From NCBI RefSeq assembly GCF_011064285.1, contig NZ_CP049331.1, positions 2,666,001-2,730,000 on the forward strand: a stretch of DNA of 64,000 nucleotides, in the 5' to 3' direction. The notes beneath the pieces were generated by a model that made no database searches, had not been told where the DNA came from, and saw only the letters and a list, made by a program, of their open reading frames with translations. This DNA is from Vibrio ziniensis (GTDB lineage Bacteria > Pseudomonadota > Gammaproteobacteria > Enterobacterales > Vibrionaceae). The number at the start of each line of letters is the position of its first letter. Positions within the stretch are counted from its first letter, which is position 1. The position numbers and the translations under genes were made by a program. This document shows, in pieces, positions 9,791-23,598 of this stretch.

Positions 9791-9866
9791 GGCCCCTTAG
9801 CTCAGTGGTTAGAGCAGTCGACTCATAATCGATTGGTCCCCAGTTCAAGTCTGGGAGGGGCCACCA
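9791..9866 (+). tRNA. tRNA-Ile2 (CAU anticodon, lysidine type); integration site
   Basis: A 76-nt tRNA with encoded CCA. Acceptor GGCCCCT pairs AGGGGCC; the anticodon loop is CTCATAA (anticodon CAT); T-stem CCCAG/CTGGG around TTCAAGT. The body matches the E. coli ileX/ileY type rather than initiator or elongator tRNA-Met, so the CAU is expected to be modified by TilS to read AUA. The 7-bp anticodon loop is the crossover core of the integrated element, so the 3' half and the following terminator come from the element side. Confidence 0.94.
9822..9828 (+). other. attL core (tRNA anticodon loop)
   Basis: CTCATAA is the 7-nt anticodon loop, flanked by the symmetrical stem arms TCGA/TCGA. Sequence identity between left and right ends begins exactly here. 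Tyrosine recombinases of tRNA-targeting islands commonly use a 7-bp overlap at the anticodon loop flanked by symmetrical arms. Crossover position is inferred from the identity boundary, not measured. Confidence 0.75.
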
Positions 9867-9875
9867 AATCTCGAT

Positions 9876-9910
9876 AAGGCGTATGAAGAAATTCATGCGC
9901 CTTTATCTTT
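9876..9910 (+). terminator. tRNA terminator hairpin, inside the duplicated att region
   Basis: AAGGCG.ATGAA pairs with TTCAT.CGCCTT around GAAA, followed by a T-rich tail. It terminates the tRNA transcript. The same hairpin is repeated in the internal inverted copy (about 15671-15705) and at the right end (23396-23430), so the element carries the tRNA terminator along with the tRNA 3' half. Confidence 0.8.
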
Positions 9911-9913
9911 TCT

Positions 9914-9933
9914 GGTCCGGTCTATATCCGGTC
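9914..9933 (+). promoter_or_regulatory. Candidate recombinase arm-type site
   Basis: GGTCCGGTCTATATCCGGTC, which contains CCGGTC twice in direct orientation 11 bp apart. A near-identical site lies inverted at 10672-10691, and the same pair occurs in the other IR1 copy; a fifth copy lies at 23434-23453 beyond attR. Placement next to the core suits an integrase arm site, but binding is inferred. Confidence 0.5.
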
Positions 9934-10269
9934 CGCGATTACTTCCTGTAAGCTCTGGTCCATCAGGTCAGCCGAAAAACTCCACGTACTAACCACAGTG
10001 ATGTATTTCCTAGTCCGGATTGATATCCACCATCAGAACCTTCTCTCGTCTGTACAACGCGAATCAGAGCAGATACATACCACTCAACACCAGAACTAAA
10101 CCCCAGAAAAACTTCGCGCTGGAACCAACAAAAATATAACCAACATTCTGTCCCATTAGGTCTAGTTATTAATATAAATATAATTTAGATACCTGAATGG
10201 GGTTCTAGCTGAGATTACGCAGGAGACTCAGCACCGAAGATTAGGACAAGATGAATGTTGAATCATGAT

Positions 10270-10297
10270 GACCGATTACCCTCAGTGGTAATCGGTC
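10270..10297. repeat. Perfect hairpin in IR1 left
   Basis: GACCGATTACC, a 6-nt spacer CTCAGT, then GGTAATCGGTC: an 11-bp perfect stem. Identical at 15284-15311 in the other IR1 copy. No T-run follows, so it is not a typical terminator; a replication initiation structure or an operator are possible. Confidence 0.75.
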
Positions 10298-10490
10298 TGT
10301 CTTTCTCTAATGTAATTTCGACTAGTAATCAGCGACACTCAACCACAGCTCCAGAAACAGCAGCTAATCACAGGACTGGTATTCATACTGAAACCGGAAA
10401 AAACAACGGCACACTGGGCTACAGCGCGGATCTGGTATGAGTTAGGGTGTAGAGTTGGGTTAGTGGAATAGGATGTGAATCTAGCTGGTT

Positions 10491-10562
10491 ACTGTCGGGA
10501 CTGTCACGGCTGTCAGAACCGTCGGCGCTGCCATGACTGTCGCAACTGTCAGGACTACAGGG
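10491..10562 (+). repeat. Eight 9-bp iterons in IR1 left
   Basis: A strictly 9-bp-periodic array of eight units with consensus RCTGTCRNG (unit starts 10491, 10500, 10509, 10518, 10527, 10536, 10545, 10554). It is duplicated in inverted orientation at 15019-15090. Iteron arrays are typical of plasmid origins and of multi-copy regulator sites. The same bases also read as a Cys-rich short frame, so coding cannot be fully excluded. Confidence 0.7.
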
Positions 10563-10671
10563 AAAATACATCTACTGCCGCCGCCGTCGGCAAACTGGAC
10601 GGAAAACCTAAATAGGAAATTTACATTAGGGTTCGTGTCCAGCTCGGTATCTAGCCAAAATTACAGCTAAA

Positions 10672-10691
10672 GACCGGATAGAGACCGGACC
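10672..10691 (-). promoter_or_regulatory. Candidate recombinase arm-type site, inverted
   Basis: The reverse complement is GGTCCGGTCTCTATCCGGTC, 19 of 20 bases equal to the site at 9914-9933. Together the two sites bracket most of IR1. Directly followed by a CG-rich block containing GACGACGCCGTCG. Confidence 0.5.
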
Positions 10692-10839
10692 GACGACGCC
10701 GTCGCGATAATTACAGAAACTACATCACGCAGGAAGTCAGGCAGAATAAGCCTTAGAGAGAGATTACAGGGCCAGTCTGATGTGACCGACCCAGCGATCT
10801 AGGATTTTAGCTTTGGGTGTGGGTTAATCTAAGAGCGGA

Positions 10840-11331
10840 TTACTGGTCACTCGATTTATCTGAACGTATTAATAGTTTCGGCATATTTGACACCAGAGCA
10901 AACATCACATTGATGACCTCAACTATAATTGCCACAGAGAATATAATAGCCGCCAGTTGAACAGCAGTAAAAAAAGCATCCCTATCCGGTACTAAGTTAT
11001 GTTCTGGGTACACCAACAATGGCACTCCAGTTACTCTTAAATATGGAAGCAACAAAGAAACGACAAGGCATGCGACTAAGATCAACATATCCTGCTTCAA
11101 CTTCGAGAGAAAAGGGATAAATTTTTGAAACTTTTCAGCAGACCCCACCTGGGCGGCAGCAGTGATTAATACGCTGAAAATTACAGACACACCAGCCGTC
11201 AGTCCCCCCAAAATTGCACCTAAAATCCCCGGAGTAGCAGACTCCAAAACTTTATATGCAACCTCATTGGATGAGGATAAAGCTAAGCTGATGGCAAAAA
11301 TAATGCCTGTAATTGTTAGCGTTTTAAACAT
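10840..11331 (-). CDS. Small polytopic membrane protein, unknown
   Basis: A 163-residue protein with four predicted membrane segments (about residues 5-22, 32-58, 80-102 and 122-150) and a charged C-terminus. I do not recognise the family. Its start overlaps the end of the 299-residue gene upstream by 8 bp, so the two are coupled. It occupies the cargo region between the inverted repeats. A membrane protein paired with a soluble partner resembles the layout of many two-gene anti-phage systems, with the membrane protein as effector; this is inference. Confidence 0.75.
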   Translation of the reverse strand: MFKTLTITGIIFAISLALSSSNEVAYKVLESATPGILGAILGGLTAGVSVIFSVLITAAAQVGSAEKFQKFIPFLSKLKQDMLILVACLVVSLLLPYLRVTGVPLLVYPEHNLVPDRDAFFTAVQLAAIIFSVAIIVEVINVMFALVSNMPKLLIRSDKSSDQ

Positions 11332-12223
11332 CGGCTATGTCTTCTGAATCATCGTGATAATCGTACTCTTTCCTATATGCACAGAGAATATCAACAACAT
11401 CATCTGCACTGTAGTTTATTAGTTCAATCTCTGTGATACCTTTACCTGTCATAGTAACAACCTTAGCTACTTTCTCGCTACTTACGATTGTCAGTTTGCT
11501 CTTATGCCCTGATAGTATCCCTTTCATTTTCCATTGACCGCCACCTTTACGGCACCAACGGACCATGTTTCCAAACCAACTGTCACTTTTCAGTTTTAGC
11601 GTAGAGTCACGGTTTTCAAAAGTAGTAATGATTTTGTTCGCATTGGTGTTTTCTGCCGTATCATTCAACGCTTTCTTCATTTCTTTTTCAGTGTTGCCAA
11701 ATAGATTTGGTGGGGTAAGTTCAAACTTAACCGACTGAATAGAATCGAATTTGTCGTATTCTTCCCAGAACGTGTGTTCAGACGTATTTAACACAGGCTC
11801 TATGTCCGCACGTAAATTGATTTCAGCTAATTCAATGTTGTTTGATAGGGCTTGAAACGCTTTACAGGCTGCTGTAGGTGAAGAAAATACACTTGTTTTC
11901 TTCTCAACTAAAATCACCTGCTGTTCTCGATCCCATAACCAAACCATTGGAGGAAAGTCCTCCACACTAAATTCCTTAAAGTCTGAATCATGACCATGCA
12001 GAGATTTTGCTTTAGCTACCATCCCCGCCATGACACCTTCATTTCGCCCATCAATCATTACTTTCAATGAAAATAATTTTTCTTTGTGCTCATTCTCTGG
12101 CGGATTTCCTACTGAGTATCGAAGAGCATCTTCAAATGCATATATGTCATCGGACATGTTTTTATGGACAAACAACTGCGGTTCTTTAGCAACTAAAGAG
12201 ACCCTTAAAGCGTAGAAGTTCAT
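11324..12223 (-). CDS. Unknown soluble protein, partner of membrane gene
   Basis: A 299-residue soluble protein without signal or membrane segments. It begins MNFYALRVSLVAKEPQLF, contains PPMVWLWDREQQVILVEKK near residue 95 and a C-terminal half rich in charged residues with KGGGQWKMKGILSGHKSK. I cannot name a family. Upstream AGAGA before the ATG is a modest ribosome site. Its stop overlaps the start of the membrane gene by 8 bp. The beta-rich, charged character suits a sensor or nucleic-acid-associated protein, but function is not shown by sequence. Confidence 0.75.
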   Translation of the reverse strand: MNFYALRVSLVAKEPQLFVHKNMSDDIYAFEDALRYSVGNPPENEHKEKLFSLKVMIDGRNEGVMAGMVAKAKSLHGHDSDFKEFSVEDFPPMVWLWDREQQVILVEKKTSVFSSPTAACKAFQALSNNIELAEINLRADIEPVLNTSEHTFWEEYDKFDSIQSVKFELTPPNLFGNTEKEMKKALNDTAENTNANKIITTFENRDSTLKLKSDSWFGNMVRWCRKGGGQWKMKGILSGHKSKLTIVSSEKVAKVVTMTGKGITEIELINYSADDVVDILCAYRKEYDYHDDSEDIADV

Positions 12224-12387
12224 TGTATCTCTATGATTTCATTTTAAGTATGCTCATTTTACAGACAGATTTTCTGGTTGCATATAAAAAAGAACAAAAT
12301 GAAACTGTTTATATGCACAGTATAGTTAAGGGGTATATTAGTAAAGCAGTAAATTAGATTTACTGCTTTCGTCTCTATCAATGTTTA

Positions 12388-13569
12388 TCAAGCACTACTA
12401 ACCAACTCAGCCACATTTGCACTGACTTCTCTCAACCTACTCGAAGCCAAATGAGCATATCTTGTACTGGTCTGTGGCGACTGATGCCCCAACAAATGCT
12501 GAACATCATAGAGCGTCGCATTTCCGCTGTTGATCAGGATCGATGCGAAGCTATGCCTCAAATCATGAATTCGGAAGTTGTCAGTAATCCCGGCAGCTTT
12601 CTTGATTCGAGCAAAAGCCTTCTTCGGATGAGCGATAGGTCTACCGGGTGCATCTCCGGCAAAGATATAGGGGTTCTTAGGTTGTTGAAATCGTCGTTGA
12701 TCATGGATAACTTCCTTGGCTAGATGGTTGAGCAGGACCGTTCTCGACAGCCCCGACTTAGTGTGTGGTAGAAATAGGCTCCAGTTGCCGTCGTCGTCGA
12801 CGGTAAGACACTCCCATTTCGAACTGGTAATTTCCCCGATTCGCATCCCAGTAAGCAGAGCGAATTTCAATGCGTTAGATTGGGTGCGATTCGGTTCCTC
12901 GTTACATGCCTTGATGAAGCTGGACACCTCGGCCCGTGATAGGAATCGCTGTCTTACATTGTTTTCCTTCAACTTCCTGATGTATTGACCGGGATTAGAG
13001 TCGACATAACCCCATTCCATTGCCAGCCTGAACATACGAAGCACTAAGGAACGTAGACGGTTCACCGTTGCAGGCTTCCTACCTTCTAGTAATCCGTCCA
13101 ACAATTTTTGAATGTCCTGCTGACCGATATCAGTGAGAGGTTTCTTACCCCACTTCGGATAGAAGTGGAGCTTGAGACTACCTGCATCACTTTTAGCAGT
13201 AAGCTTATTCATCATTGCGTAGGGTAAGTAATGCAGCTCTGAGAATTCTTGGAACGTAAGGACGTTGCGCTTCTCATCACGAATAGCCTTGGGGTCATTA
13301 CCTAGAGCAATTTCCCGTTTATGGTCATTGGCAATCTGACGAGCAGTGTTGATATCTAATGCTGGATATTCACCTAGCTGGATAGATTTCTTGGTTCCGT
13401 GGAGTGTGTACCTGAACAAGAAACGCTTCCTTCCTTGGCGGTTGACGATCATCTTGAGGCCAGAACATAACTCATCCGTATATTCCGTTTCCTTACTTTT
13501 GCTCGACGGCGGCGTCGGTGGTAGTGAGTCGAGTTGGCGCTTATTGAATTTGAATTTTCGGGATTGCAT
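12388..13569 (-). CDS. int: Tyrosine-type integrase (P4-like)
   Basis: I place the start at the ATG 13569 because AAGGAGG lies 5 bp before it; an in-frame ATG at 13587 lacks such a site. The 393-residue protein has an N-terminal arm-binding domain (RFLFRYTLHGTKKSIQLGEYP), a SAM-like core-binding domain and a C-terminal catalytic domain. Catalytic residues by motif: Arg in TGMRIGEI, Lys in HTKSG, HDLRHSF, LGHQS and Tyr in TSTRYAHL (about residue 371). It should act on the tRNA-Ile2 core. Unusually it lies mid-way between the inverted repeats, about 2.2 kb from one internal core and 2.6 kb from attL's end of coding sequence. Confidence 0.96.
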   Translation of the reverse strand: MQSRKFKFNKRQLDSLPPTPPSSKSKETEYTDELCSGLKMIVNRQGRKRFLFRYTLHGTKKSIQLGEYPALDINTARQIANDHKREIALGNDPKAIRDEKRNVLTFQEFSELHYLPYAMMNKLTAKSDAGSLKLHFYPKWGKKPLTDIGQQDIQKLLDGLLEGRKPATVNRLRSLVLRMFRLAMEWGYVDSNPGQYIRKLKENNVRQRFLSRAEVSSFIKACNEEPNRTQSNALKFALLTGMRIGEITSSKWECLTVDDDGNWSLFLPHTKSGLSRTVLLNHLAKEVIHDQRRFQQPKNPYIFAGDAPGRPIAHPKKAFARIKKAAGITDNFRIHDLRHSFASILINSGNATLYDVQHLLGHQSPQTSTRYAHLASSRLREVSANVAELVSSA

Positions 13570-13579
13570 CACTGCCTCC

Positions 13580-13942
13580 TTAGTCATTCTCGATGGAGAA
13601 GTATTGGCGTAATTCGGTGAGCAGTATCTTAGGCATCAGTAGATAGATACCCTTACCAGAGTCCTCGACAATGCTCAGGGTCAGCACTGCTCCGTAGTCC
13701 AGATCGTCTTCGAATTCGGTGTAGGTCAGTGCTCGTTTCAGCAGTTCGATATCGTCGACGACGACGGCAGATAGATCCGACATTGAGGTTAGGAACCAGA
13801 GTTCACATTGCAGTTCATCCCATGCTTGTTGGGTTTCTGCATCATCGTGAAATGGTTCGGTGAGTATGGTTTTGACTTGTTCTTGTAGGGTTGTGGTGAT
13901 TGGTAGGGTTGTGATTTGTTGAAGATTGGTTAGCTTAATCAT
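13580..13942 (-). CDS. Small acidic protein upstream of integrase, unknown
   Basis: The start is set at the ATG 13942, preceded by GGAG with 6-bp spacing; an upstream in-frame ATG at 13969 is less likely. The product is 120 residues, acidic (EPFHDDAETQQAWDEL, TEFEDDLDYG), without membrane segments. It ends 10 bp before the integrase start, so the two are probably cotranscribed. A recombination directionality factor would be a natural job here, but no excisionase helix-turn-helix is visible. Unknown family. Confidence 0.7.
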   Translation of the reverse strand: MIKLTNLQQITTLPITTTLQEQVKTILTEPFHDDAETQQAWDELQCELWFLTSMSDLSAVVVDDIELLKRALTYTEFEDDLDYGAVLTLSIVEDSGKGIYLLMPKILLTELRQYFSIEND

Positions 13943-14070
13943 ATTGAACTCCATGATTATCAGTATCATAGTGTTAATATGTGCCTGAAGTTTCGAATGT
14001 TTCGGAATAATCCAGTCAAAGAACTAACATCTAAGTCCTTACAATCGTTTTAACGCATCACGAGGCTCTA

Positions 14071-14742
14071 ATGAATAAATCCCCAACATATTTCATTGAT
14101 TTTACAGAAATAGGCAACGACTCTCGGTTTGAAAAATTTGCAGAACATTTCTTGGAAGATATGGGGTTCAATATCGATACTCCACCTTCATTCGGTCCAG
14201 ATAGAAAGAGAGATTTGGTTGTATCTGAACCAAGCCTTGTTTCTAAAAGGGGATTGCGATGGCTAGTTAGCTGTAAATATTATGGAAGTAGAATCGGCCA
14301 AGATGATGATGAGGCTAATATAAACAAGTTGTATGAGCATGATTGTGATGGATTTATGTTTGTTTACTCTCATGAACCCACGAGTAGCCTATTAGATAGT
14401 GTTGAAGCTGTATGTAAAAGGTCAAACAAACCATATAAGTTTTTTACAGGCTGGAATATAGAAAACGCTCTAATGTCATTCACTGAGCACACAAGGACGT
14501 TTAGATACTTTTTCCCGAAATCATTTCGGATCATAAATGACTTAAAGAAAGAGCCTAAGTGTGAGTGCAAGTTCCACACCATCAGCTATGGAGGCCCTTT
14601 ATTAGTACTAGCATACAAACGACACAGAGATGACGTTCCGCACTATAAAATGGTATGTAACGAGTGCATAAGTGACATTTATGACGATTTAAATAGAGAC
14701 TGTTATAGTTGGTCAACAACAGTTCTATTAGAAGAATTCTGA
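14071..14742 (+). CDS. Mrr-like PD-(D/E)XK nuclease
   Basis: A 223-residue protein. Residues 14-70 have the restriction endonuclease layout: RFEKFAEHFLEDMGF helix, GPDRKRDLVV (Asp48) and LVSCKYYGSRIG (Lys69). The usual Gln/Glu before CK is Ser67. A C-terminal cluster Cys164, Cys166, His169, Cys196 and Cys199 could bind zinc. Such proteins are often type IV restriction enzymes or other defence nucleases. It is transcribed opposite to the integrase, ends just before the right IR1 copy and has GAGG before its ATG. Confidence 0.75.
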   Translation: MNKSPTYFIDFTEIGNDSRFEKFAEHFLEDMGFNIDTPPSFGPDRKRDLVVSEPSLVSKRGLRWLVSCKYYGSRIGQDDDEANINKLYEHDCDGFMFVYSHEPTSSLLDSVEAVCKRSNKPYKFFTGWNIENALMSFTEHTRTFRYFFPKSFRIINDLKKEPKCECKFHTISYGGPLLVLAYKRHRDDVPHYKMVCNECISDIYDDLNRDCYSWSTTVLLEEF

Positions 14743-14889
14743 TGATTTCAGATATCCCACACCCAACTAACTAAAATCCTAGATCGCTGGGTCGGTCACA
14801 TCAGACTGGCCCTGTAATCTCTCTCTAAGGCTTATTCTGCCTGACTTCCTGCGTGATGTAGTTTCTGTAATTATCGCGACGGCGTCGTC

Positions 14890-14909
14890 GGTCCGGTCTC
14901 TATCCGGTC
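14890..14909 (+). promoter_or_regulatory. Candidate recombinase arm-type site
   Basis: GGTCCGGTCTCTATCCGGTC, the partner in the right IR1 copy of the site at 10672-10691. Confidence 0.5.
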
Positions 14910-15018
14910 TTTAGCTGTAATTTTGGCTAGATACCGAGCTGGACACGAACCCTAATGTAAATTTCCTATTTAGGTTTTCCGTCCAGTTTGCCGACGGCGG
15001 CGGCAGTAGATGTATTTT

Positions 15019-15090
15019 CCCTGTAGTCCTGACAGTTGCGACAGTCATGGCAGCGCCGACGGTTCTGACAGCCGTGACAGTCCCGACAGT
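15019..15090 (-). repeat. Eight 9-bp iterons in IR1 right
   Basis: Inverted duplicate of the array at 10491-10562 with the same 9-bp period; on this strand each unit reads CNYGACAGY. Confidence 0.7.
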
Positions 15091-15283
15091 AACCAGCTAG
15101 ATTCACATCCTATTCCACTAACCCAACTCTACACCCTAACTCATACCAGATCCGCGCTGTAGCCCAGTGTGCCGTTGTTTTTTCCGGTTTCAGTATGAAT
15201 ACCAGTCCTGTGATTAGCTGCTGTTTCTGGAGCTGTGGTTGAGTGTCGCTGATTACTAGTCGAAATTACATTAGAGAAAGACA

Positions 15284-15311
15284 GACCGATTACCACTGAG
15301 GGTAATCGGTC
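15284..15311. repeat. Perfect hairpin in IR1 right
   Basis: Same 11-bp stem (GACCGATTACC / GGTAATCGGTC) with spacer ACTGAG, the complement of the left copy's spacer. Confidence 0.75.
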
Positions 15312-15647
15312 ATCATGATTCAACATTCATCTTGTCCTAATCTTCGGTGCTGAGTCTCCTGCGTAATCTCAGCTAGAACCCCATTCAGGTATCTAAATTA
15401 TATTTATATTAATAACTAGACCTAATGGGACAGAATGTTGGTTATATTTTTGTTGGTTCCAGCGCGAAGTTTTTCTGGGGTTTAGTTCTGGTGTTGAGTG
15501 GTATGTATCTGCTCTGATTCGCGTTGTACAGACGAGAGAAGGTTCTGATGGTGGATATCAATCCGGACTAGGAAATACATCACTGTGGTTAGTACGTGGA
15601 GTTTTTCGGCTGACCTGATGGACCAGAGCTTACAGGAAGTAATCGCG

Positions 15648-15667
15648 GACCGGATATCGACCGGACC
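15648..15667 (-). promoter_or_regulatory. Candidate recombinase arm-type site
   Basis: Its reverse complement is GGTCCGGTCGATATCCGGTC, one base different from the site at 9914-9933. It lies about 85 bp from the internal core copy. Confidence 0.5.
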
Positions 15668-15714
15668 AGAAAAGATAAAGGCGCATGAATTTCTTCATAC
15701 GCCTTATCGGGATT

Positions 15715-15759
15715 TGGTGGCCCCTATGTGACTTGAACACATGACCAATCGATTATGAG
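15715..15759 (-). pseudogene. Internal tRNA-Ile2 3' half with covarying T-stem (att')
   Basis: Read on the minus strand: core CTCATAA, anticodon stem 3' side TCGA, T-stem ATGTG/CACAT around TTCAAGT, then AGGGGCC and ACCA. Both T-stem strands differ from the resident tRNA (CCCAG/CTGGG) yet pair perfectly. It lacks the 5' half and so is not a working tRNA here. It is inverted relative to attL and attR. Confidence 0.85.
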
Positions 15760-15943
15760 CGAAGGCCAGCAGCAACCTCCCCGCACAATCAACATAGAAA
15801 CCCTGCCCCGAATCACGCCCATATCCACCAGCAAAATCACATCACCTGATTACCCGCATGATTTTACTGACGTCGCCGACGGGAAATCTACTGAACCTAT
15901 ATCACCGCCGCCACCGTCGAGGAAATGTAGAAAACTGTGTTGG
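15760..15943 (+). repeat. 184-bp inverted repeat IR2, internal copy
   Basis: Reverse complement of 23158-23341; I found no difference over the compared length. It abuts the internal core. In the excised circle IR2 joins IR1 through the core, extending the inverted repeat to about 1,173 bp. It contains a CG-rich block GACGTCGCCGACGGG. A 63-codon proline-rich frame starts in the core, but it has no ribosome site. Confidence 0.9.
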
Positions 15944-15966
15944 TAGCAGCGGTAAGACAGGATCAA

Positions 15967-16530
15967 TCAGTAAGTTGCCACCACATCTGCCTTAGCGAAC
16001 TTACCCAAGATCTCATTACAATCGAGTCGGCAAAAATCCTCAAAGCAACTTACAAACTCCCACATAGCGCCCGTGAGATAAGATAACTTCTCACTATATG
16101 AGAACTCTGTATTTTCTGCGAAGTAGATATACGCTTCATACAAAGCATCAGGATAGCCATTAGCTGTATCCAGTGGATTTATCTCATTAAACAAGTATTC
16201 CCCCTTGAAATATTTCTCATGTACGCCATCGTCACCCGGTAGGTGAACCTTGACTGTAACTTCATACAGTCCGTGCTCTTTCTCTCGGAGTTCAGTAACG
16301 CATATAATTGAGCGAGTATATTCAACCCAAACACCCGGTTCTTTTTCTTCGGAGCTATAGATGTAGTCATTCCCAAACCAGATCTCACTATCAACATAGT
16401 TGTCATCTGTATGCTCAACATCCCAACCAAGTAAATCGACGTTGGCACGTCCCCAATCTTGTAGCATCTGAGATGCAATTGTCTTTAGTTCTGTTTGTAC
16501 TTCCAGTGCATATTTTTTTTTATTGAACAT
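15967..16530 (-). CDS. Hypothetical acidic protein of replication operon
   Basis: A 187-residue acidic soluble protein, rich in aromatic residues (WGRANVDLLGWDVEHTDDNYVDSE is its longest such region, residues 27-50; key residues Trp27, Trp36). GGGGACC before the ATG is a good ribosome site. It is the third gene after the polymerase and ATPase genes, about 150 bp downstream. I do not recognise a family; the acidic surface could suit a partner of DNA-binding replication proteins, which is only a guess. Confidence 0.7.
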   Translation of the reverse strand: MFNKKKYALEVQTELKTIASQMLQDWGRANVDLLGWDVEHTDDNYVDSEIWFGNDYIYSSEEKEPGVWVEYTRSIICVTELREKEHGLYEVTVKVHLPGDDGVHEKYFKGEYLFNEINPLDTANGYPDALYEAYIYFAENTEFSYSEKLSYLTGAMWEFVSCFEDFCRLDCNEILGKFAKADVVATY

Positions 16531-16681
16531 GATGGTCCCCTTTTTAATTTGAATGATTCGACACTAGGCTTGAATGTATCCAAGCCCAGAAGCGTTGATT
16601 TAAAGATGTAATATGTTGTGTTCGATGCTTTTCTAAAAGCACCGTTAAGGCTGAGTAGAAAAATGTAATTTAGAGGTGGTG

Positions 16682-18535
16682 TCAGCCAAGAAATGCCGAT
16701 GTAGCTGCATCAGATTCAGCTTGCGTCATCTCATGCCATTTAGAGGCTGAGTCAAATTTGCTTGTTACGCGCTCATATTCTTCCATCAACTGATCCATCT
16801 CGCTTTCATTCAGCGGGTCAAAATCATCGTCCATGTCGGCAGGGTCGAGTTCTGGGAGTTCTTCAACAACGCGGTTAACTTCTATCAGAGCTGATTCTGG
16901 ATACGTCAGCGGCTCAGAGAACGATGGTTCGTGAGGGATTATGTCTTCGACATTCTGAGCATTCTCGATCGCACGAAGAGTTAGCTTACGCCCGTTAGTG
17001 CCTCGTGTACCACCAGATATAACTTCAACACCATGTTTTTCTAATTGCTCTTTCATACGGTTAAGCTTGGTACTTAAAGCTGACGCATTCTGAGGCCAGT
17101 TGCTTGGTAGACGGCGCATTTCTGACATGATGGCACTATGTAGCATTTTATGAACCTGCGTTGGGCCACCAGTAAAAAGTTTCTCCTGATGAACGATAGT
17201 TATAATGCTCGCCAACAACTCATCATGTTCTAAAGCCTGCATATTCAGGGCTTCTTCCTGCGCTTTGTTTACACCCTGCTGGACTGATTGATCGGTAATA
17301 CCCAGTACAGTTTCGAAGGCTGCTAGAAATGTATTGAAGTCGCCACCTCGGAACTTGGCAATAGATGAAACATCGTCCAACATTGCCATAGCTTTTGCGG
17401 TCATACTGAGCAACCACGACTGGGCATACGGGAGGATTGCACTTAGCTTTTGGTATATCTCTGTGTCACTGGCGTAGGTAATTCGTGGTTTACCCGCTTT
17501 GATGAATATTGAACGAGTGCATAAATCGTATTGTTTAGGGAACTTAATCGCCGTTAATATCATTGGTTGGTGGAGGAGCGTTTCGACCAAATCTACATTC
17601 GTATAGAGTTTACGACCATCAACGGTGCCACCCGTTGCCACGCTACACATACCATTGGCTAACTCGTCACTAATGCGACCACAATTATCGAAACACAACA
17701 TGTAGTTGTGCGAAGCGGTAGCAATAAGATCACGAATATCTTTAGGCTGAGTCTTCACTTTCGTTCCATTTAGTCCCAGTAGCATAGCGACTAAGCGGGC
17801 GACTGTCGTTTTACCAGAGCCAGCATTCCCATGAAGGTAAAGAATCGGATAAGTAAGTCCGTCCGCTCTCGGGTGACTTAATATAAAACCTGCGTACGCC
17901 ATGATGGCTACAAACTGACCATAGCTTAGATTGCTGAAGAGTTCTTGAAGTTTAGACGGTATATCTTGTTGCTCCCAGCCGGATACATATTGGAGGTGTC
18001 CATTATTTGGGGCGTAACGGAAGGTGATATCTGTTTCTTTATCGCTAAGCAGAACTTCACCACCAGCTAGAACCAATCCTCGACCGTCGCTACTACGAGC
18101 ATCGAGCGCAACACCTTTACTTTTGTTGTCAACGTCGATGTAAGCATTGAAGATGTTCACATCTGCATCGGCCCCCTCCAAAACCGCGTCTAGGCTGACA
18201 GTTTCCAGAGCTTTCTCTACACTTTTTACCGTTAAGCCTTTTACGCCAGCAGCGCGCGCAGCTTTAGCCACAACCGCCTGACTAATTTGACCGTTTAGAG
18301 ACGTGCTGTAATTTGTTGTACCACCATCCACGACAAGAACTGGCGTAGAATTGTCGAGCGCAACCGCAGCATTGGGAAGGTTTTGCATAGCTTGTGCAAG
18401 GCTATCACCGAGCTTACCTTCGTTCTCTTTTAATGCTTGTGTCAACATCACCTTAAGGTGACTCTCCACTCGTTGAAAAGGTGTTTTCGGTCCAGTTTTG
18501 TTTTTACTGCTTTTAGTTCGAATACTTAATGCCAT
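16682..18535 (-). CDS. P-loop ATPase, DUF927-like putative replicative helicase
   Basis: A 617-residue protein. Walker A HGNAGSGKTT at residues 235-244 is followed by a Walker B-like strand YMLCFDN at 278-284 and a sensor-like LTAIKFPKQYDLCTRS. The order and the segment with VSGWEQQ and TYPILYLHGNAG resemble DUF927 ATPases of phages and plasmids. The N-terminal 200 residues are probably a separate domain; no primase motif is clear. AGGAG precedes the ATG. It follows the polymerase gene by 25 bp, so a replication role (helicase or loader) is likely. Confidence 0.75.
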   Translation of the reverse strand: MALSIRTKSSKNKTGPKTPFQRVESHLKVMLTQALKENEGKLGDSLAQAMQNLPNAAVALDNSTPVLVVDGGTTNYSTSLNGQISQAVVAKAARAAGVKGLTVKSVEKALETVSLDAVLEGADADVNIFNAYIDVDNKSKGVALDARSSDGRGLVLAGGEVLLSDKETDITFRYAPNNGHLQYVSGWEQQDIPSKLQELFSNLSYGQFVAIMAYAGFILSHPRADGLTYPILYLHGNAGSGKTTVARLVAMLLGLNGTKVKTQPKDIRDLIATASHNYMLCFDNCGRISDELANGMCSVATGGTVDGRKLYTNVDLVETLLHQPMILTAIKFPKQYDLCTRSIFIKAGKPRITYASDTEIYQKLSAILPYAQSWLLSMTAKAMAMLDDVSSIAKFRGGDFNTFLAAFETVLGITDQSVQQGVNKAQEEALNMQALEHDELLASIITIVHQEKLFTGGPTQVHKMLHSAIMSEMRRLPSNWPQNASALSTKLNRMKEQLEKHGVEVISGGTRGTNGRKLTLRAIENAQNVEDIIPHEPSFSEPLTYPESALIEVNRVVEELPELDPADMDDDFDPLNESEMDQLMEEYERVTSKFDSASKWHEMTQAESDAATSAFLG

Positions 18536-18560
18536 GATTTATCTCCTGTTTATTTGTTAG

Positions 18561-19886
18561 TTAGTGATTATTAATTACGTGATATTCACAATCACACCGC
18601 AGGCGGTAGCCTTCTCCTAGCACTTCCTCAGACACATCCGCCATCGCCTTTTCTGCTAAGGCATATGTCTCTGAATCAGTTGCATGGGTCTGGACGCCGA
18701 TACAGTCATGAATTGCAAAAATGAGTGGAATATTGAGTTGCTCTAGCTTGATGCAGAGCTTTCGCAGCATGTAGCTACACACTGCCTGGACATAGAAATT
18801 GCGAAGTGTAGAAGTTTTCGTGTCGGTGTCGACGGCTCGTCGAAAACCGAACACCTCCGCATAACCTTGCTTTCTTGCTTCTTGAACTTTCTGGTCGAGA
18901 TACGCATTCTCCCGAGGGAAAATGACTCGCAGTTCCCTATCCCAAATCGCCGCCACTGTCGGGCTAACACGATACTTTTTCCGAATGCCGCTCGGCGTAA
19001 TACCATAGAGATGAGCAATACACAGACGCTTGAAGCTTGCCCGATCTAGTTCTGCGAATGCCGCAGATCTTGATTGCAGCTCTAGGTACAGATCTCCCTT
19101 CAGGTATGCAGCCCAGAGCTCATGGTCGCCAGTTAATGCAGCTAGTGATGCGGGTTCTTGAGATGAGTAATCGAGCACAAATATCTGGTCGCCCTTTTTG
19201 GGGTGAAGCAGATGATTGCGTATAGTTTTTGATAGGTAGTTGAATGATGATCCCTTAGGTGCTTCTCTACCTGTCGAAGATCCGAACGGGTTAGGCCATT
19301 CGTGGTGTTTACCCCGGAAATCAACTTGCAGGCGTAATATATTTTTGTATCTCGTATACATCATCGAAAAGTACATTCGCTGGGCGAGCTCTACTTTTAC
19401 GTCTTTCAGTTTGCTCCGCTCTGTTACCAATGTCCCATCTGGATTTCTCGGCCAGAGTGTGAGTTCCGGCCCAGAAAGAAAGAACGCTGGATCACCTATT
19501 ACCTGAATTCGATTCTCATCGTCGATGCTAATGAGCCCCATACCGATTAGGTGCTGAAGATTTGCTTCACCTGTTTCTAGGCTTCGCTGGTACTTCATCA
19601 ATCTACCGAGATGGATAGGTATGCCTCTCTGGTAACGTCGAACGCAACTTCTTATATACGCATTGTCTTCATCACCATTCAGCACGTCCGAATCTTTAAT
19701 CAATTCATCCAGTTTTCTAATAAGAAAATCTGGCGGTGGCTCACAGGTCTTATATTGGCTTAGGTATTCATCCAGACGCTTAGCTTTCGCTTTGTTCCTC
19801 AATGGGTTGCACGCCAATATATGTTTTGCTTTTGCTAGAACTGTTCCGGAACGAAACAGTTCTATTGCTCTGATTTCGTTTAGCAC
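18561..19886 (-). CDS. Compact family A DNA polymerase
   Basis: A 441-residue polymerase without a visible exonuclease domain. Family A motifs: SSTGREAP at 203-210; motif A VLDYSSQEPASLAAL with Asp239; motif B RASFKRLCIAHLYG with Arg282, Lys286 and Tyr294; motif C AIHDCIGV with His393 and Asp394. Two departures: Cys395 replaces the usual Glu of HDE, and Ile290 stands where Pol I has Phe762. The start is a GTG with GAGGA 5 bp upstream. It leads the operon with the ATPase and probably copies the element in its circular state. Confidence 0.9.
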   Translation of the reverse strand: MLNEIRAIELFRSGTVLAKAKHILACNPLRNKAKAKRLDEYLSQYKTCEPPPDFLIRKLDELIKDSDVLNGDEDNAYIRSCVRRYQRGIPIHLGRLMKYQRSLETGEANLQHLIGMGLISIDDENRIQVIGDPAFFLSGPELTLWPRNPDGTLVTERSKLKDVKVELAQRMYFSMMYTRYKNILRLQVDFRGKHHEWPNPFGSSTGREAPKGSSFNYLSKTIRNHLLHPKKGDQIFVLDYSSQEPASLAALTGDHELWAAYLKGDLYLELQSRSAAFAELDRASFKRLCIAHLYGITPSGIRKKYRVSPTVAAIWDRELRVIFPRENAYLDQKVQEARKQGYAEVFGFRRAVDTDTKTSTLRNFYVQAVCSYMLRKLCIKLEQLNIPLIFAIHDCIGVQTHATDSETYALAEKAMADVSEEVLGEGYRLRCDCEYHVINNH

Positions 19887-19975
19887 AGAGTCCTCACTTA
19901 TCTAAAGTTCAACACTATTTCCTCTCACTTTTGAGTTATCCAAATTTTTAAAGAACATACGACACTTTTCAAAAA

Positions 19976-19993
19976 GTATCTTAAAAAGATATC
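19976..19993. promoter_or_regulatory. Candidate operator between polymerase and XRE genes
   Basis: TATCTT-AAA-AAGATA forms an exact inverted repeat (19977-19991). TATCTT recurs at 20038-20043. The site lies in the 246-bp divergent region between the polymerase operon and the XRE regulator gene, where a repressor controlling both would bind. Binding is inferred. Confidence 0.5.
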
Positions 19994-20132
19994 GTGATAA
20001 AAAGATTACAGAGCACCTCCGGATGTGTCAACAAAAATATCTTTAAATTTGATTTTTCTAAATAGAGAGTTAAAATAAGAAAACAAAACAGGCCGGTTAA
20101 CGCCTGACGGCAGGACTAAAATGGAGGGTGGA

Positions 20133-20705
20133 ATGAATACCTTGAAGCTAGGAAACCACACAAGCATATCTACTGTGATCGCAGAATTTGTTAAGAAACT
20201 TAGGTTATTTGGGGCTGATTATGTCCGATCAGGTTCCGATGTTAGTAAAGCTGACCCATCTCCAGAAAATCAGGAAAAAGTGGCCAAGGCTCTAAAAATC
20301 ACCAAGGCCGCCTACTCAAAAATCGAAAATGGTGATGTCGCAATCTCCATTTACCACCTTAGCCAACTCTGCACGGGCTATGGCATATCTCTCGGCGAAC
20401 TAATGTCCTGCGTCGATAAAAGAGTCGAACAGTTAGAAAGCAAGGGCGTTAACGTTATCAACGCGAAATTAGAACTCCGTCTCGATTGCTTAAGATGGGA
20501 CGCTAAGGTTAATGAGAAAGCGGAAGCAAACCTGAACAAAGCCAAAAAAGAGTTGAAGAGAACATATACCTTGTACTCAACCGAACAACGCGAATCTCTA
20601 TGGCAAGAATGTCGCGAGAAAGCCTTAGCCGAACTAGAAAAAAAGTATGATTTAAGTGAAGCAATATCTGCTCAGCGGCAATTTCAGGAGACAACGGGTA
20701 ATTAG
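20133..20705 (+). CDS. XRE-family transcriptional regulator
   Basis: I choose the ATG at 20133 (MNTLKLGNH) because GGAGGG lies just before it; an in-frame ATG at 20121 precedes that site. About 190 residues: a helix-turn-helix around VAKALKITKAAYSKIENGDVAI (recognition part AAYSKIENGD) and a C-terminal charged, helical region (NEKAEANLNKAKKELKRTY) likely to form a coiled coil. It is divergent from the polymerase operon and probably controls replication of the element. Confidence 0.85.
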   Translation: MNTLKLGNHTSISTVIAEFVKKLRLFGADYVRSGSDVSKADPSPENQEKVAKALKITKAAYSKIENGDVAISIYHLSQLCTGYGISLGELMSCVDKRVEQLESKGVNVINAKLELRLDCLRWDAKVNEKAEANLNKAKKELKRTYTLYSTEQRESLWQECREKALAELEKKYDLSEAISAQRQFQETTGN

Positions 20706-20805
20706 TGGTGAGTTGACCGTTGTATATGGGGAGCTTCCTCTGTCGTCGCTGTCGAGTTTCCACCCCCCAAAAAAACAGAGGGTACTCCCCCTGCTCTTCT
20801 GACGC

Positions 20806-20988
20806 TCAGTCATCCATCACCTCATCGGCAACGAATCCCACAACAAAGCCAGCAATACCGCCAACGAGAGCGCCGTATGGTCCGTATCGAGCACCAATAA
20901 CAGCCCCAATTTTGGCCGCTTTGAGTCCGGTATCCTTGTTCAATGTCGCTTCTGTATCGCTGGTGAATGTTCTCGTTTTCCTGAACAT
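20806..20988 (-). CDS. Small glycine-zipper membrane protein
   Basis: A 60-residue protein with a good ribosome site (AAGGAAATTAACG before ATG). Residues 27-55 hold small-residue repeats (GAVIGARYGPYGALVGG and GFVVGFVADE), a glycine-zipper pattern that packs helices in membranes. Unknown role; such peptides can be pore-forming or scaffold proteins. Confidence 0.6.
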   Translation of the reverse strand: MFRKTRTFTSDTEATLNKDTGLKAAKIGAVIGARYGPYGALVGGIAGFVVGFVADEVMDD

Positions 20989-21131
20989 CGTTAATTTCCT
21001 TCTAATATGAGAAAGGGCGATACCACTGCTGATATCGCCCTTGTTGATGTTGCATTGCTCTGTTCTAACCGAGAGTCCCCACTTTCAAATCAGAAGCTAG
21101 AGCAATACAACAAACCTGTTTTTCGAAATGA

Positions 21132-21377
21132 TTACTTATCGGTCTTGGGCTGGCATTTCGCTGCATCCATGACTTTGCCATTCATGGTTCCACAGGCATC
21201 GGCATACCACTCAATGCGAGGGCCAGACTGAGAGTAAACTTGTTTACCTGCTTTCCCATTCCAGGATTGTTCTATCTTCGAAATGTCAGTTGGATTACCG
21301 CCGAACGTGCCGCCAGCGAATGATGATGTGGTAGCGAATAGACACGTTAGACCTAATAGGATGATTGATTTTTTCAT
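21132..21377 (-). CDS. Small secreted protein, unknown
   Basis: An 81-residue protein with a clear signal peptide (MKKSIILLGLTCLFATTSSFA, cleaved about residue 21-22) and AAGGAAA upstream. The mature part is about 60 residues with two Cys (ACGTMNGK and AAKCQPK), which could form a disulfide in the periplasm. Family not recognised. Confidence 0.7.
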   Translation of the reverse strand: MKKSIILLGLTCLFATTSSFAGGTFGGNPTDISKIEQSWNGKAGKQVYSQSGPRIEWYADACGTMNGKVMDAAKCQPKTDK

Positions 21378-21610
21378 TGTGTTGTTTCCTTGAATAATGA
21401 CGATACTCAGCGTAGGAGCACGGTTGTTGATTAGTATGATGATTAGGACTGACAGGTTGTGTCAGTCAGGTAAATGATGTTGAGGAAGAAAGGCAGGGCT
21501 TAGGTTTCTTGGGCGATGAAACCTATAACAAAATCGGTCACTTATTCTTGGCGACCACGAAATAATGAGGGCTGACACCACCTGTCAGTGAGTCACTACA
21601 TTATTGAGTC

Positions 21611-22483
21611 ATGAATAAGAGCGAGAAGTTAGCCTACCGATTGAGTCAGATTCTTTCCCGGTTATATGCGGGAGAGAAGTTGAGCCTTATCGACTTAGAG
21701 CAGGAATTCGGAGTGCATGAGAGAACGGTACTTCGAGACTTCAATCGCTTGGCGTTTTTGCCTATCGAAAGAGAAGAGGGTTATTACTACCTGAAGCAAT
21801 TAGATCATCGTAACCCTAAAGCTCATAAAGCTCTTCATGCCCTATCGAACATGGGTATTGATAAGCTGTTTCCAGATAGGAAAACCATGACTCAGGCGCT
21901 GAATCATAAGACACAATCCATACTGTTCCGTCATATTCCTATCGAGGATTCAGCTCGCTTTCGGGATACCTTAATTTTGATTGCGGATGCGATTCATCAA
22001 CGAAATACGCTGACTCTGACTTTTCATAATCGGCGTTATCATCAGATAGAGCCTTACCAACTCATTAACGAGCGGGGTTACTGGTATCTGATTGCTGCGC
22101 AGAGAACACAGCCGCATTCGTTTCGAGTAGCCGAGATTGCTGAGATAATCCGGCACGATGATATTTATACTCCCTCACCTATCCTCTCCGAGAAGCTAAC
22201 CAGAGAAGAGCTACATTGGCAGGCTCACGGTGTTATAGAAGTCATAGCTCAGATTGATTCGGGTCGTATTCGCGATTATCAGGAAACCGAACATCACCTG
22301 ACTATCCGAACCCTGAAAGAACTGGGCTATGGTTCAACGCTTATCAGCATTCAGACCTCGAACATACATTCCCTGATGCCAGTCCTAAAATCCTGGATAC
22401 CGAGTATCGATATCATTTCTCCATTGTGGGTAAAACAGGCGCTGATGAGAGAAGTCGAAGCCTATCTCTCGACCTGTTCGTGA
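21611..22483 (+). CDS. WYL-domain transcriptional regulator
   Basis: A 290-residue protein. Residues 1-60 form a DeoR/HTH_11-type winged helix (LSLIDLEQEFGVHERTVLRD). The middle has the WYL signature region: LTLTFHNRRYHQIEPYQLINERGYWYLIA (key residues Arg of NRRY, Tyr of EPYQL, WYL variant YWYLIA). WYL domains bind nucleic acid or nucleotide ligands and are frequent in regulators of defence and mobile genes. It converges with the next gene. Confidence 0.85.
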   Translation: MNKSEKLAYRLSQILSRLYAGEKLSLIDLEQEFGVHERTVLRDFNRLAFLPIEREEGYYYLKQLDHRNPKAHKALHALSNMGIDKLFPDRKTMTQALNHKTQSILFRHIPIEDSARFRDTLILIADAIHQRNTLTLTFHNRRYHQIEPYQLINERGYWYLIAAQRTQPHSFRVAEIAEIIRHDDIYTPSPILSEKLTREELHWQAHGVIEVIAQIDSGRIRDYQETEHHLTIRTLKELGYGSTLISIQTSNIHSLMPVLKSWIPSIDIISPLWVKQALMREVEAYLSTCS

Positions 22484-22507
22484 GACTGACTTAATGAGCA
22501 GTATCGG

Positions 22508-22529
22508 CGTCGTCATTTCGTCGACGACG
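22508..22529. repeat. CGTCGTC inverted repeat between convergent genes
   Basis: CGTCGTC and GACGACG are paired around 8 bp between the WYL gene and the 154-residue gene. It may be a stem at the end of both transcripts, but it has no clear T-run. It is one of several CGTCG/CGACG-rich blocks in the element. Confidence 0.5.
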
Positions 22530-22541
22530 TCGAGAAACCCA

Positions 22542-23006
22542 TCATGACTTCTGTACGAGCGCTAATAGGTCAGCTTTTTGCTCATCGTAATCTTTCGATT
22601 TGATGTGCAGATAAATAGACGACTCTGCTTTTGTTGCCAGATTAAGGCCCCGAGCAATTGCAGCACAGAATCCTTGATTGTTGGCTGAACCGGAAGAATA
22701 GAGAGATTTATACACCTGACTTTTCCATGGTTTGTCACCCTGTGATTCGATAAGGTCTAGCAGCCTATTGAGCAGAATCCACTGTTTTGAATGCAATCCT
22801 GCCCCGCCACTTTGTCCGGCAATTCGAAAGTAGAGTTGGTCATCTTCGCTGTTTTGAGCAATCTCGTAGAGCACCGTTCCTTGGGACTTTGCTCCTAGTT
22901 TTGGTGCTTCACCTGTTTTGAGAATGGTAGAGAATGGATTGTCTACTGATGTGGTTTTAGATGTGTCTGCCTCTGCATTCTTCCTGCTGGTTTTGGCTTG
23001 GTTCAT
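22542..23006 (-). CDS. Hypothetical protein at right end of element
   Basis: A 154-residue soluble protein with AAGGAG before the ATG. The N-terminal 35 residues are polar and likely disordered. A folded region follows (FRIAGQSGGAGLHSKQWILL, then IARGLNLATKAESSIYLHIKS). I do not recognise it. It is the last gene before IR2 and the right att site. Confidence 0.65.
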   Translation of the reverse strand: MNQAKTSRKNAEADTSKTTSVDNPFSTILKTGEAPKLGAKSQGTVLYEIAQNSEDDQLYFRIAGQSGGAGLHSKQWILLNRLLDLIESQGDKPWKSQVYKSLYSSGSANNQGFCAAIARGLNLATKAESSIYLHIKSKDYDEQKADLLALVQKS

Positions 23007-23157
23007 AGAAACTCCTTTATATGTCGAACTGGAAAGAAGAATACCCTTACCGGACGAAACCAGTGAAAGTTATTCTAATTCAATAATATAAATTCATTTC
23101 TCAGCTTGATACGCCTAGGGGGGGGTTCCTGTCTTTTCCGGTACTGTTCCTGTCTTT

Positions 23158-23341
23158 CCAACACAGTTTTCTACATTTCCTCGACGGTGGCGGCGGTGAT
23201 ATAGGTTCAGTAGATTTCCCGTCGGCGACGTCAGTAAAATCATGCGGGTAATCAGGTGATGTGATTTTGCTGGTGGATATGGGCGTGATTCGGGGCAGGG
23301 TTTCTATGTTGATTGTGCGGGGAGGTTGCTGCTGGCCTTCG
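23158..23341 (-). repeat. 184-bp inverted repeat IR2, right-end copy
   Basis: Reverse complement of 15760-15943, ending exactly at the attR core. It diverges abruptly at 23158, where short GACAGGAA-like repeats follow (23105-23157). Confidence 0.9.
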
Positions 23342-23483
23342 CTCATAATCGATTGGTCCCCAGTTCAAGTCTGGGAGGGGCCACCAAATCTCGATAAGGC
23401 GTATGAAGAAATTCATGCGCCTTTATCTTTTCTGGTCCGGTCTATATCCGGTCTGCAATTACTTCCGGTAAGCTCTGGTCCAT
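23342..23483 (+). repeat. attR: direct repeat of tRNA 3' half plus downstream 97 bp
   Basis: Matches 9822-9963 over 142 bp with four mismatches, all after position 23453. It holds the core (23342-23348), the 45-nt tRNA 3' half, the terminator hairpin and one 20-bp arm-like site (23434-23453). The homology continues well beyond the tRNA, further than a normal att core. Confidence 0.9.
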
Positions 23484-23598
23484 TAGCACCGATAGATGTT
23501 TACAGTATCTTGTTACATCCACAGTTTTGTATCATCGAACCAACAGCGATGGGTGGCTAATCAAGTGGTTTCTTTTTACAGAGATACCTACAAACAGC

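Follow-up and report, generated by a model that had tools for sequence, protein, structure and literature searches.

In a 64,000-nt stretch of the Vibrio ziniensis chromosome (the window), we found that a 13.5-kb element in a transfer RNA (tRNA) gene with the anticodon CAT is a mobile island with the junction of its own two ends present inside it as an inverted copy. It is almost certain that this architecture is real and that it is conserved among relatives. Taken as a whole, the data are best explained by a conserved layout of two inverted sites, on both of which the tyrosine integrase of the element (Int, gene int) would act, with amplification as a possible outcome, and we regard this reading as fairly probable. 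Positions are those of the window; G numbers label the genomes in the collections compared and L numbers label loci.

The left arm (L) of the island begins within the anticodon loop of the tRNA gene at 9822 and the right arm (R) ends at 23341; the tRNA, which we take to resemble E. coli tRNA-Ile2, stays intact after the insertion. Both pairs of inverted repeats (IR) and the inverted internal core claimed in the preliminary description were confirmed. The left arm and its internal copy L' (IR1, 9822-10810 and 14771-15759) are 989 nt long, 99% identical and separated by 3,960 nt, and the right arm and its copy R' (IR2, 15760-15943 and 23158-23341) are 184 bp long, 100% identical and separated by 7,214 nt, with IR2 included in a longer inverted pair of 329 nt at 96% identity (15615-15943 and 23158-23486). 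Read on the minus strand from 15943 to 14771, right end, core and left end follow one another, which is the circular junction of the element, inverted. Excision at the outer cores would, judged in silico, give a circle with two near-identical inverted repeats of about 1.17 kb, one core in each. The repeats split this deduced circle into region A, with int, F2 and cargo, and region B, with a helicase-like ATPase, a PolA-family polymerase and regulators (Table 1).

The 7-bp sequence CTCATAA, initially described as the end repeat, does occur at the sites, but the direct repeat between the element ends is really 145 bp long (97% identity). It has this length because the chromosome past the right attachment site (attR) retains 145 bp that resemble the left arm, arm motifs included, and this stretch is probably the scar of an earlier insertion. 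With 15 copies in the window against 10.8 +/- 3.0 in shuffled sequences, the 7-mer is unremarkable, and we rejected its significance by itself; the weight lies on the long arms.

We traced ten elements over every junction: the window element, two in G044 (e1 and e2) and one each in G019, G063, G206, G177, G273, G227 and G397, of which seven belong to the genus and three to two further families of its order. All ten show the succession of core, inverted internal core and core, with paired arms. Conservation in relatives, on which the initial proposal had been made to depend, was thereby borne out in three families, and the plan was partly found in a fourth. Left arms were matched in 10/10 elements (78-100% identity) and right arms at 80-100% in nine and at 58% in G177. 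In eight elements the tRNA contains the first core; for G044 e2 the end of e1 serves as that core, and that of G177 is found past another island. From core to core, A measures 5.9-10.9 kb and B 2.1-12.5 kb. Furthermore, seven loci cut by contig ends show part of the plan: inverted copies of L stand on both sides of A in G130, G049, G225, G429, Salinivibrio siamensis and Photobacterium aphoticum (only 21 bp in the last), and B is flanked by inverted cores in G161. Degraded members were excluded from the ten (G068, G061, G201, G167, G055 and Photobacterium proteolyticum); among them, G201 is a single-site derivative retaining a piece of inverted L, and P. proteolyticum has the inverted cores, arms 73% alike and int split into two open reading frames (ORFs). 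The comparison also left out G285 (a 64% int fragment), G413 and G560 (36%), and contigs that were too short (G096, G599 and the int contig of G161).

Among 227 genomes of the genus, 18 had an integrase match at E<=1e-60; identity over the matched stretch was >=84% in 16 (in fragments only for G055, G061, G068 and G167) and 37% in the other two, G220 and G094. In an order-wide set of 394 genomes, drawn evenly from a larger group, 17 matched: five of the genus (the window genome, G130, G161, G063 and G220), G227, G273, G397 and G429 at 67-75%, a 64% fragment in G285, and seven genomes at 36-40%. Int was found in 2/152 genomes in the family of G397 at E<=1e-120 and in 2/11 in the genus of G273. 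Named genomes yielded 13 loci in one scan, of which nine were in Vibrio and one each in a Vibrionaceae metagenome-assembled genome, Salinivibrio siamensis, P. aphoticum and P. proteolyticum.

The members vary in content. Two complete elements stand in tandem at one tRNA in G044 (G044:C1, about 514-545 kb, L027 and L028), with different cargo and B modules; their right arms are about 62% alike between e1 and e2 and 100% identical within each. The B modules of other members hold different polymerase/helicase sets, and in G063 (L055) the PolA-like gene is in two ORFs, the related gene of G049 being one frame of 676 aa. In G273 and G227 (L103-L106), the F3-F7-WYL block lies in A beside int, not in B, and the sites are placed differently relative to these genes. 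Past attR in G206 (G206:C4, L057), a left arm and a right arm bound a unit that lacks int and has two cargo ORFs; this unit may be a non-autonomous element that is mobilised in trans.

We compared the arms with the tRNA part skipped and found that the paired arms evolve in concert and are homogenised within most elements. The two left arms of an element are mutual nearest neighbours in nine of the ten cases and the right arms in eight. Left arms are 78-100% identical within an element (median 99%) and at most 87.4% identical between elements (median 57.6%); the corresponding values for right arms are 58-100% (median 100%) and at most 92.7% (median 52.5%). In trees, L pairs with L' in 6/7 Vibrio elements and in 9/10 overall. 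Both copies of the left arm of G063 are about 250 bp shorter than the left arms of related elements, and they match each other at 100% over 682 bp. The motif at the distal end of the left arm was found in 20/20 arms.

Positions 8-17 of the sites vary between lineages, and there the three sites of an element agree in 10/10. In the window, the first 112 bp of the left attachment site (attL) equal attR, and from position 103 onwards attL equals the internal arm, from which it differs at ten positions up to 102; the crossover is not placeable at the anticodon loop from the window alone. In G273, the T-stem alleles put the crossover within the 17 bp starting with CTCATAA, because attL has the allele of the internal site and attR carries another. 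Probably, the left end in the window exchanged DNA with the chromosomal copy after integration, through homologous exchange. The internal copy in the window has a fully paired T-stem, ATGTG/CACAT, versus CCCAG/CTGGG at the flanks; the internal T-stem of G227, too, is fully paired and unlike either flanking T-stem, and in G130 the internal and attR T-stems differ. A paired T-stem outside a tRNA gene is expected if the sequence is at times exchanged into the tRNA gene or was recently copied from one. This ATGTG/CACAT variant of the tRNA 3' half (window 15726-15742, complement) also occurs in at least G130, G061, G068, G051 and G054, and it lies in or beside an element or its remains in the window, G130, G061 and G068.

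The two sites are not alike in their presumed arm sites. The arms, 12.5 kb in total, contain 67 copies of the motif TCC[GT]GT[CA], a putative arm-binding site of the integrase, against 25 copies in the remaining 138 kb of the ten elements. It is about 30-fold denser in the arms, but the Fisher p value is exaggerated, the motif having been picked by inspection of these same, related arms. On the right side, three copies 10-11 bp apart lie about 180-215 bp from the core, and the arm-type sites of lambda P' have comparable spacing. This full triple is present in eight of the ten elements and always beside one site, attR in seven and the internal site in G177. G397 and G227 have two copies and one copy, respectively, in the range of the triple at attR, and the opposite site holds none or one. 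Draft B contigs carry the triple at attR in G049, G130 and G161, and it is absent at the internal site of G130 and G161. The initial assumption that both cores are equivalent was rejected, since the presumed arm-site array is complete beside one site only. From its motif content, the internal site looks like a second attL and not like a full attP, and with more than one att site the element is not an island with a single attP.

The orientation of the two regions differs between elements. Int faces the first core in eight of the ten; G206 and G177 have it pointing away. In nine Vibrio elements, F3 occupies the attR side of B (the window, G044 e1, G044 e2, G019, G063, G206, G049, G130 and G161, its side in the last two being a reading of contigs). 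In G206, int points away from attL and F3 is still on the attR side, which is the other relative orientation of A and B. In G177, int and F3 are both flipped, B is 2.1 kb long with a shortened F3, and three motifs stand at the internal site and none at attR, an arrangement that would be expected if the element had integrated via its other site or if both regions had flipped. The arrangements of G206 and G177 are compatible with natural inversion, and the 9:1 position of F3 fits a rule by which the array-bearing site alone integrates.

We examined loci with distant integrases as controls. Nine loci in seven genomes with 36-40% integrases (G458, G359, G394, two in G559, two in G404, G220 and G094) contain no inverted repeat >=60 bp in the fetched stretches, some of which are short or at contig ends, while F3 is present in 8/9 and F2 in 7/9. 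A related island in the genome of the window, beside tRNA-Leu (CAA) (G000:C1, about 389-402 kb, L127), likewise shows no inverted repeat in 40 kb; it has F3 and WYL homologues, two integrase-like genes (28-30% identity) and 399 bp that are 96% identical to window 20995-21393, the F7 region, which suggests an exchange between the two islands. A survey of the 3' half of this tRNA that was independent of int found a match in 198/227 genus genomes. Sites resembling att were present on both strands in 10 of the 227, and all ten carry the family int, although two of the ten are weak cases, sites being on different contigs in G049 and G225 (two of those of G225) and draft contig orientation being arbitrary. 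At least two sites on one strand only were found in 24 genomes, 22 of them without the family int. A search for the empty site in relatives gave, outside the own genome, short matches only and no clean comparison.

From this we propose a mechanism in which Int would recognise both cores and invert A relative to B, and recombination between the arms, by Int or by homologous recombination, would keep the arms alike. The site with the complete arm-site set (P1) would serve integration and excision, and the internal site without the right-arm array (P2) would act as a second attL. Recombination between attR and P2 would flip B and move the array inside, and the remaining attR would no longer be excisable, as in G177. 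More speculatively, the element's own helicase and polymerase, with an inversion behind one fork, could start an amplification of the excised circle by double rolling-circle replication in the manner of the 2-micron plasmid. We think it probable that Int uses the internal site. Double rolling-circle amplification we consider doubtful, and only tentatively would we put forward the combined view that a tRNA integrase works as a Flp-like invertase starting such amplification, with unequal arms making one inversion state excisable and the other locked. Use of the internal site, the lock and amplification are compatible roles, so that our estimates for them overlap.

Several observations weigh against use of both sites and against amplification. 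In 9/10 elements, attR has motifs of the R array (the full triple in seven), and P2, where most of this array is missing, may be a poor substrate. Of the ten Vibrio elements with F3 in B, nine have it on the attR side, and it adjoins the internal site in G177 (p = 0.02); because F3 and the R array hold one position in 9/10, this argues that B does not flip freely while integrated. The different arrangements are seen between genomes, each assembly being one snapshot, and that of G206 may be a module exchange, since cargo differs between elements. G206 also fails the pairing on both arms and G177 on the right arm, and arm identity could be explained by homologous recombination alone. In the window, attL is of the chromosomal type over its first 102-112 bp, which a simple crossover at the core does not explain. 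The fold match of the ATPase is remote (template modelling score, TM, 0.2-0.5; predicted local distance difference test, pLDDT, 68 for the model), and no origin of replication was located, a composition profile giving no clear signal.

Four other explanations were weighed. A one-off rearrangement or an assembly artefact was rejected and can practically be dismissed: long inverted repeats are hard to assemble and several draft contigs end inside the arms, but the plan recurs, with different arm sequences, in independent assemblies of 2-5 contigs (the window genome, G044, G019, G063, G273 and G227), and the two copies differ in places and were therefore assembled separately. It is also possible, though on balance not likely, that the layout is a reversible mobility switch and not a means of amplification, with Int flipping B via the internal site and the array shifting between attR, where the element is excisable, and the internal site, where it is locked. 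Such an orientation lock agrees with the triple standing always beside one site, with the three draft B contigs, and with G177, whose motif-free attR and three internal motifs are the predicted locked state; yet G177 is the single locked example, with a short B and a shortened F3, and binding of the motif by Int is itself a presumption.

A passive origin, in which the site was once duplicated, host homologous recombination keeps the arms identical and Int never uses the internal core, seems unlikely to us. Gene conversion between long inverted repeats would be enough for arm identity, double rolling-circle replication is described as promoting recombination between repeats by itself (PMC3147054), one position is kept by F3 and the R array in 9/10, and attL of the window suggests homologous exchange at the locus. 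Such a passive repeat does not account well for an internal core that, with its next ten bases, matches the outer sites in 10/10, for a plan that persists with int identity down to 75%, or for an arm-end motif retained in both copies. Less likely still would be a platform for module exchange, where the shared arms are handles for swapping whole A or B modules and inversion is a by-product. The cargo beside int does vary between mapped elements, B holds three types of polymerase/helicase module by our grouping, the F3-F7-WYL block has its place in A in G273 and G227, and G206 has the extra int-less unit bounded by L and R; one att site with shared arms would also permit swapping, however, which leaves the retention of a second, inverted site unexplained.

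Table 1. The island, its sites and its genes, with positions in the window
Feature	Position	Strand	Basis or remark
tRNA gene, anticodon CAT	9791..9866	+	ARAGORN call Met(CAT)
attL core region, starts CTCATAA	9822..9838	+	17-bp width transferred from G273
Left arm L (IR1, outer copy)	9822..10810	+	listed ORFs of up to 61 aa within; start of conserved end motif 969 bp from core start
Arm-type motifs TCCGGTC, TCCGGTC, TCCTGTA	9916..9950	+	starts 9916, 9927, 9944
Inverted pair of arm-type motifs	starts 10678, 10689	-	within left arm
Cargo, 163-aa protein	10840..11331	-	hydrophobic-looking by eye; no family match
Cargo, 299-aa protein	11324..12223	-	no family match
Tyrosine integrase (Arm-DNA-bind_3, Phage_int_M, Phage_integrase)	12388..13587	-	Pfam; faces tRNA
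F2, 129 aa, phrog_32947 of unknown function	13580..13969	-	overlaps int start; partner of int in relatives
Cargo, Mrr-like restriction endonuclease	14071..14742	+	PADLOC candidate PDC-M58A
Left arm L' (IR1, internal inverted copy)	14771..15759	-	repeat comparison
Internal core, inverted; alternative tRNA T-stem allele next to it	15753..15759	-	repeat and 7-mer positions
Right arm R' (IR2, internal copy)	15760..15943	-	one motif copy just past arm (15962), not three
187-aa protein	15967..16530	-	no family match
F5, 617-aa ATPase	16682..18535	-	predicted fold remotely like D5-like/SF3-type primase-helicases
DNA polymerase, family A	18561..19886	-	domain search
Helix-turn-helix (Cro/C1-type) regulator	20121..20705	+	domain search
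F7, 81 aa	21132..21377	-	relatives in other elements
WYL-domain regulator	21611..22483	+	domain search
F3, 154 aa, phrog_28971, function unknown	22542..23006	-	also in 8/9 loci with distant integrases
Array of three arm-type motifs	23127..23154	+	starts 23127, 23137, 23148; 10-11 bp apart; attR side only
Right arm R (IR2, outer copy)	23158..23341	+	repeat comparison
attR core and chromosomal side	23342..23486	+	97% identical to left-arm start; probable scar of earlier element

The best-scoring solved structures for Int are XerD and lambda-type Int, and it has, by eye, the catalytic motifs of tyrosine integrases. At E<=1e-50, none of 50,697 phage records matched it, and IMG/VR gave no pattern match (capsid or packaging genes were not searched for in the element). 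A phage or plasmid origin of int was not supported, the sole plasmid match, at 37%, being on an Aeromonas caviae plasmid. For F5, an AlphaFold model built on 9 sequences (pLDDT as given above; predicted TM score, pTM, 0.57) had African swine fever virus PrimPol as its top fold match (E 2e-8), followed by the SaPI5 primase-helicase, NrS-1 and SCCmec Cch (E 4e-7 to 9e-7). Though remote, these matches consistently point to a D5-like/SF3-type ATPase, and a profile search of the Protein Data Bank (PDB) with F5 gave weak P-loop matches only. The polymerase had only remote matches among plasmids and phages, the phage ones in 56 records. With a PolA-family polymerase and a helicase-like ATPase encoded, the element could plausibly replicate once excised, judging from the predicted proteins. 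The model of F3 (pLDDT 83) had no fold match at E<=0.001, NCBIfam gave no useful match for F2, F3 and F5, and an Rfam scan returned the host tRNA and three matches under gathering scores. The overlapping genes for the 163-aa and 299-aa proteins (10840-12223) resemble the Kiwa defence pair in their layout, but the two proteins had no match in PADLOC, Pfam or NCBIfam.

Duplicated att sites are expected to be a liability, because DNA is deleted between direct copies and scrambled by inverted ones. That an inverted second site was kept, with its copies alike, through the divergence of int to 75% identity implies use of the site. Should inversion drive amplification, the strategy of the 2-micron plasmid would have arisen independently in bacteria and would be open to study in a simple system; if the site gates excision, this would be a new control of island mobility, here on an island with a candidate defence gene. 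As draft assemblies break inside the arms, such islands may be under-reported. In the open-licence literature, a scope outside which most subscription papers and bioRxiv lie, we found no bacterial element into which a second, inverted att site is built.

Among known systems, tRNA-integrating islands share with the element the tRNA 3' end that is carried, the direct end repeats, one tyrosine integrase and variable cargo; the nine control islands in addition carry F3 and F2 in most cases but show no long inverted repeat in the stretches fetched. The strand-biased circularizing elements SE-6945 and SE-6283 of Vibrio are also integrative and circularise, but have two tyrosine recombinases (IntA and IntB) and 19-bp imperfect inverted end repeats, and the word tRNA is absent from the main text of their description (PMC9345347). 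IntpTN3 of the Thermococcus element pTN3 is a tRNA-targeting tyrosine integrase that also inverts DNA between inverted att sites (PMC5495485). Inversion by the Int of the element would fit this activity, although the natural inversions proposed for pTN3 are chromosomal and the passages of PMC5495485 that describe them mention no built-in second inverted att site.

Chloroplast genomes and herpes simplex virus 1 (HSV-1) are likewise divided by inverted repeats and occur as isomers, and their inversions have been linked to hyper-recombination, possibly with double rolling-circle replication; the account of them in PMC3147054 mentions no integrase site inside the repeats. The same source describes the yeast 2-micron circle as having inverted repeats, a circle-encoded recombinase and alternative isomers (PMC3147054). 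The resemblance to this plasmid noted in the preliminary description holds for the layout, which recurs in relatives with homogenised arms, and not for the recombinase or for the sites: the element has an arm-binding phage-type integrase (Arm-DNA-bind_3, Phage_int_M and Phage_integrase in Pfam) that is not of the Flp family, and its two sites have unequal arms. The 2-micron plasmid has a REP/STB partition system. Its circle has a counterpart in one that is deduced from the sequence and that integrates in a bacterial tRNA gene. Within these differences, the two circles agree in having two recombinase sites, each in one of two long inverted repeats, two unique regions between them, a recombinase encoded on the circle and, as far as arrangements that differ between genomes go, alternative isomers.

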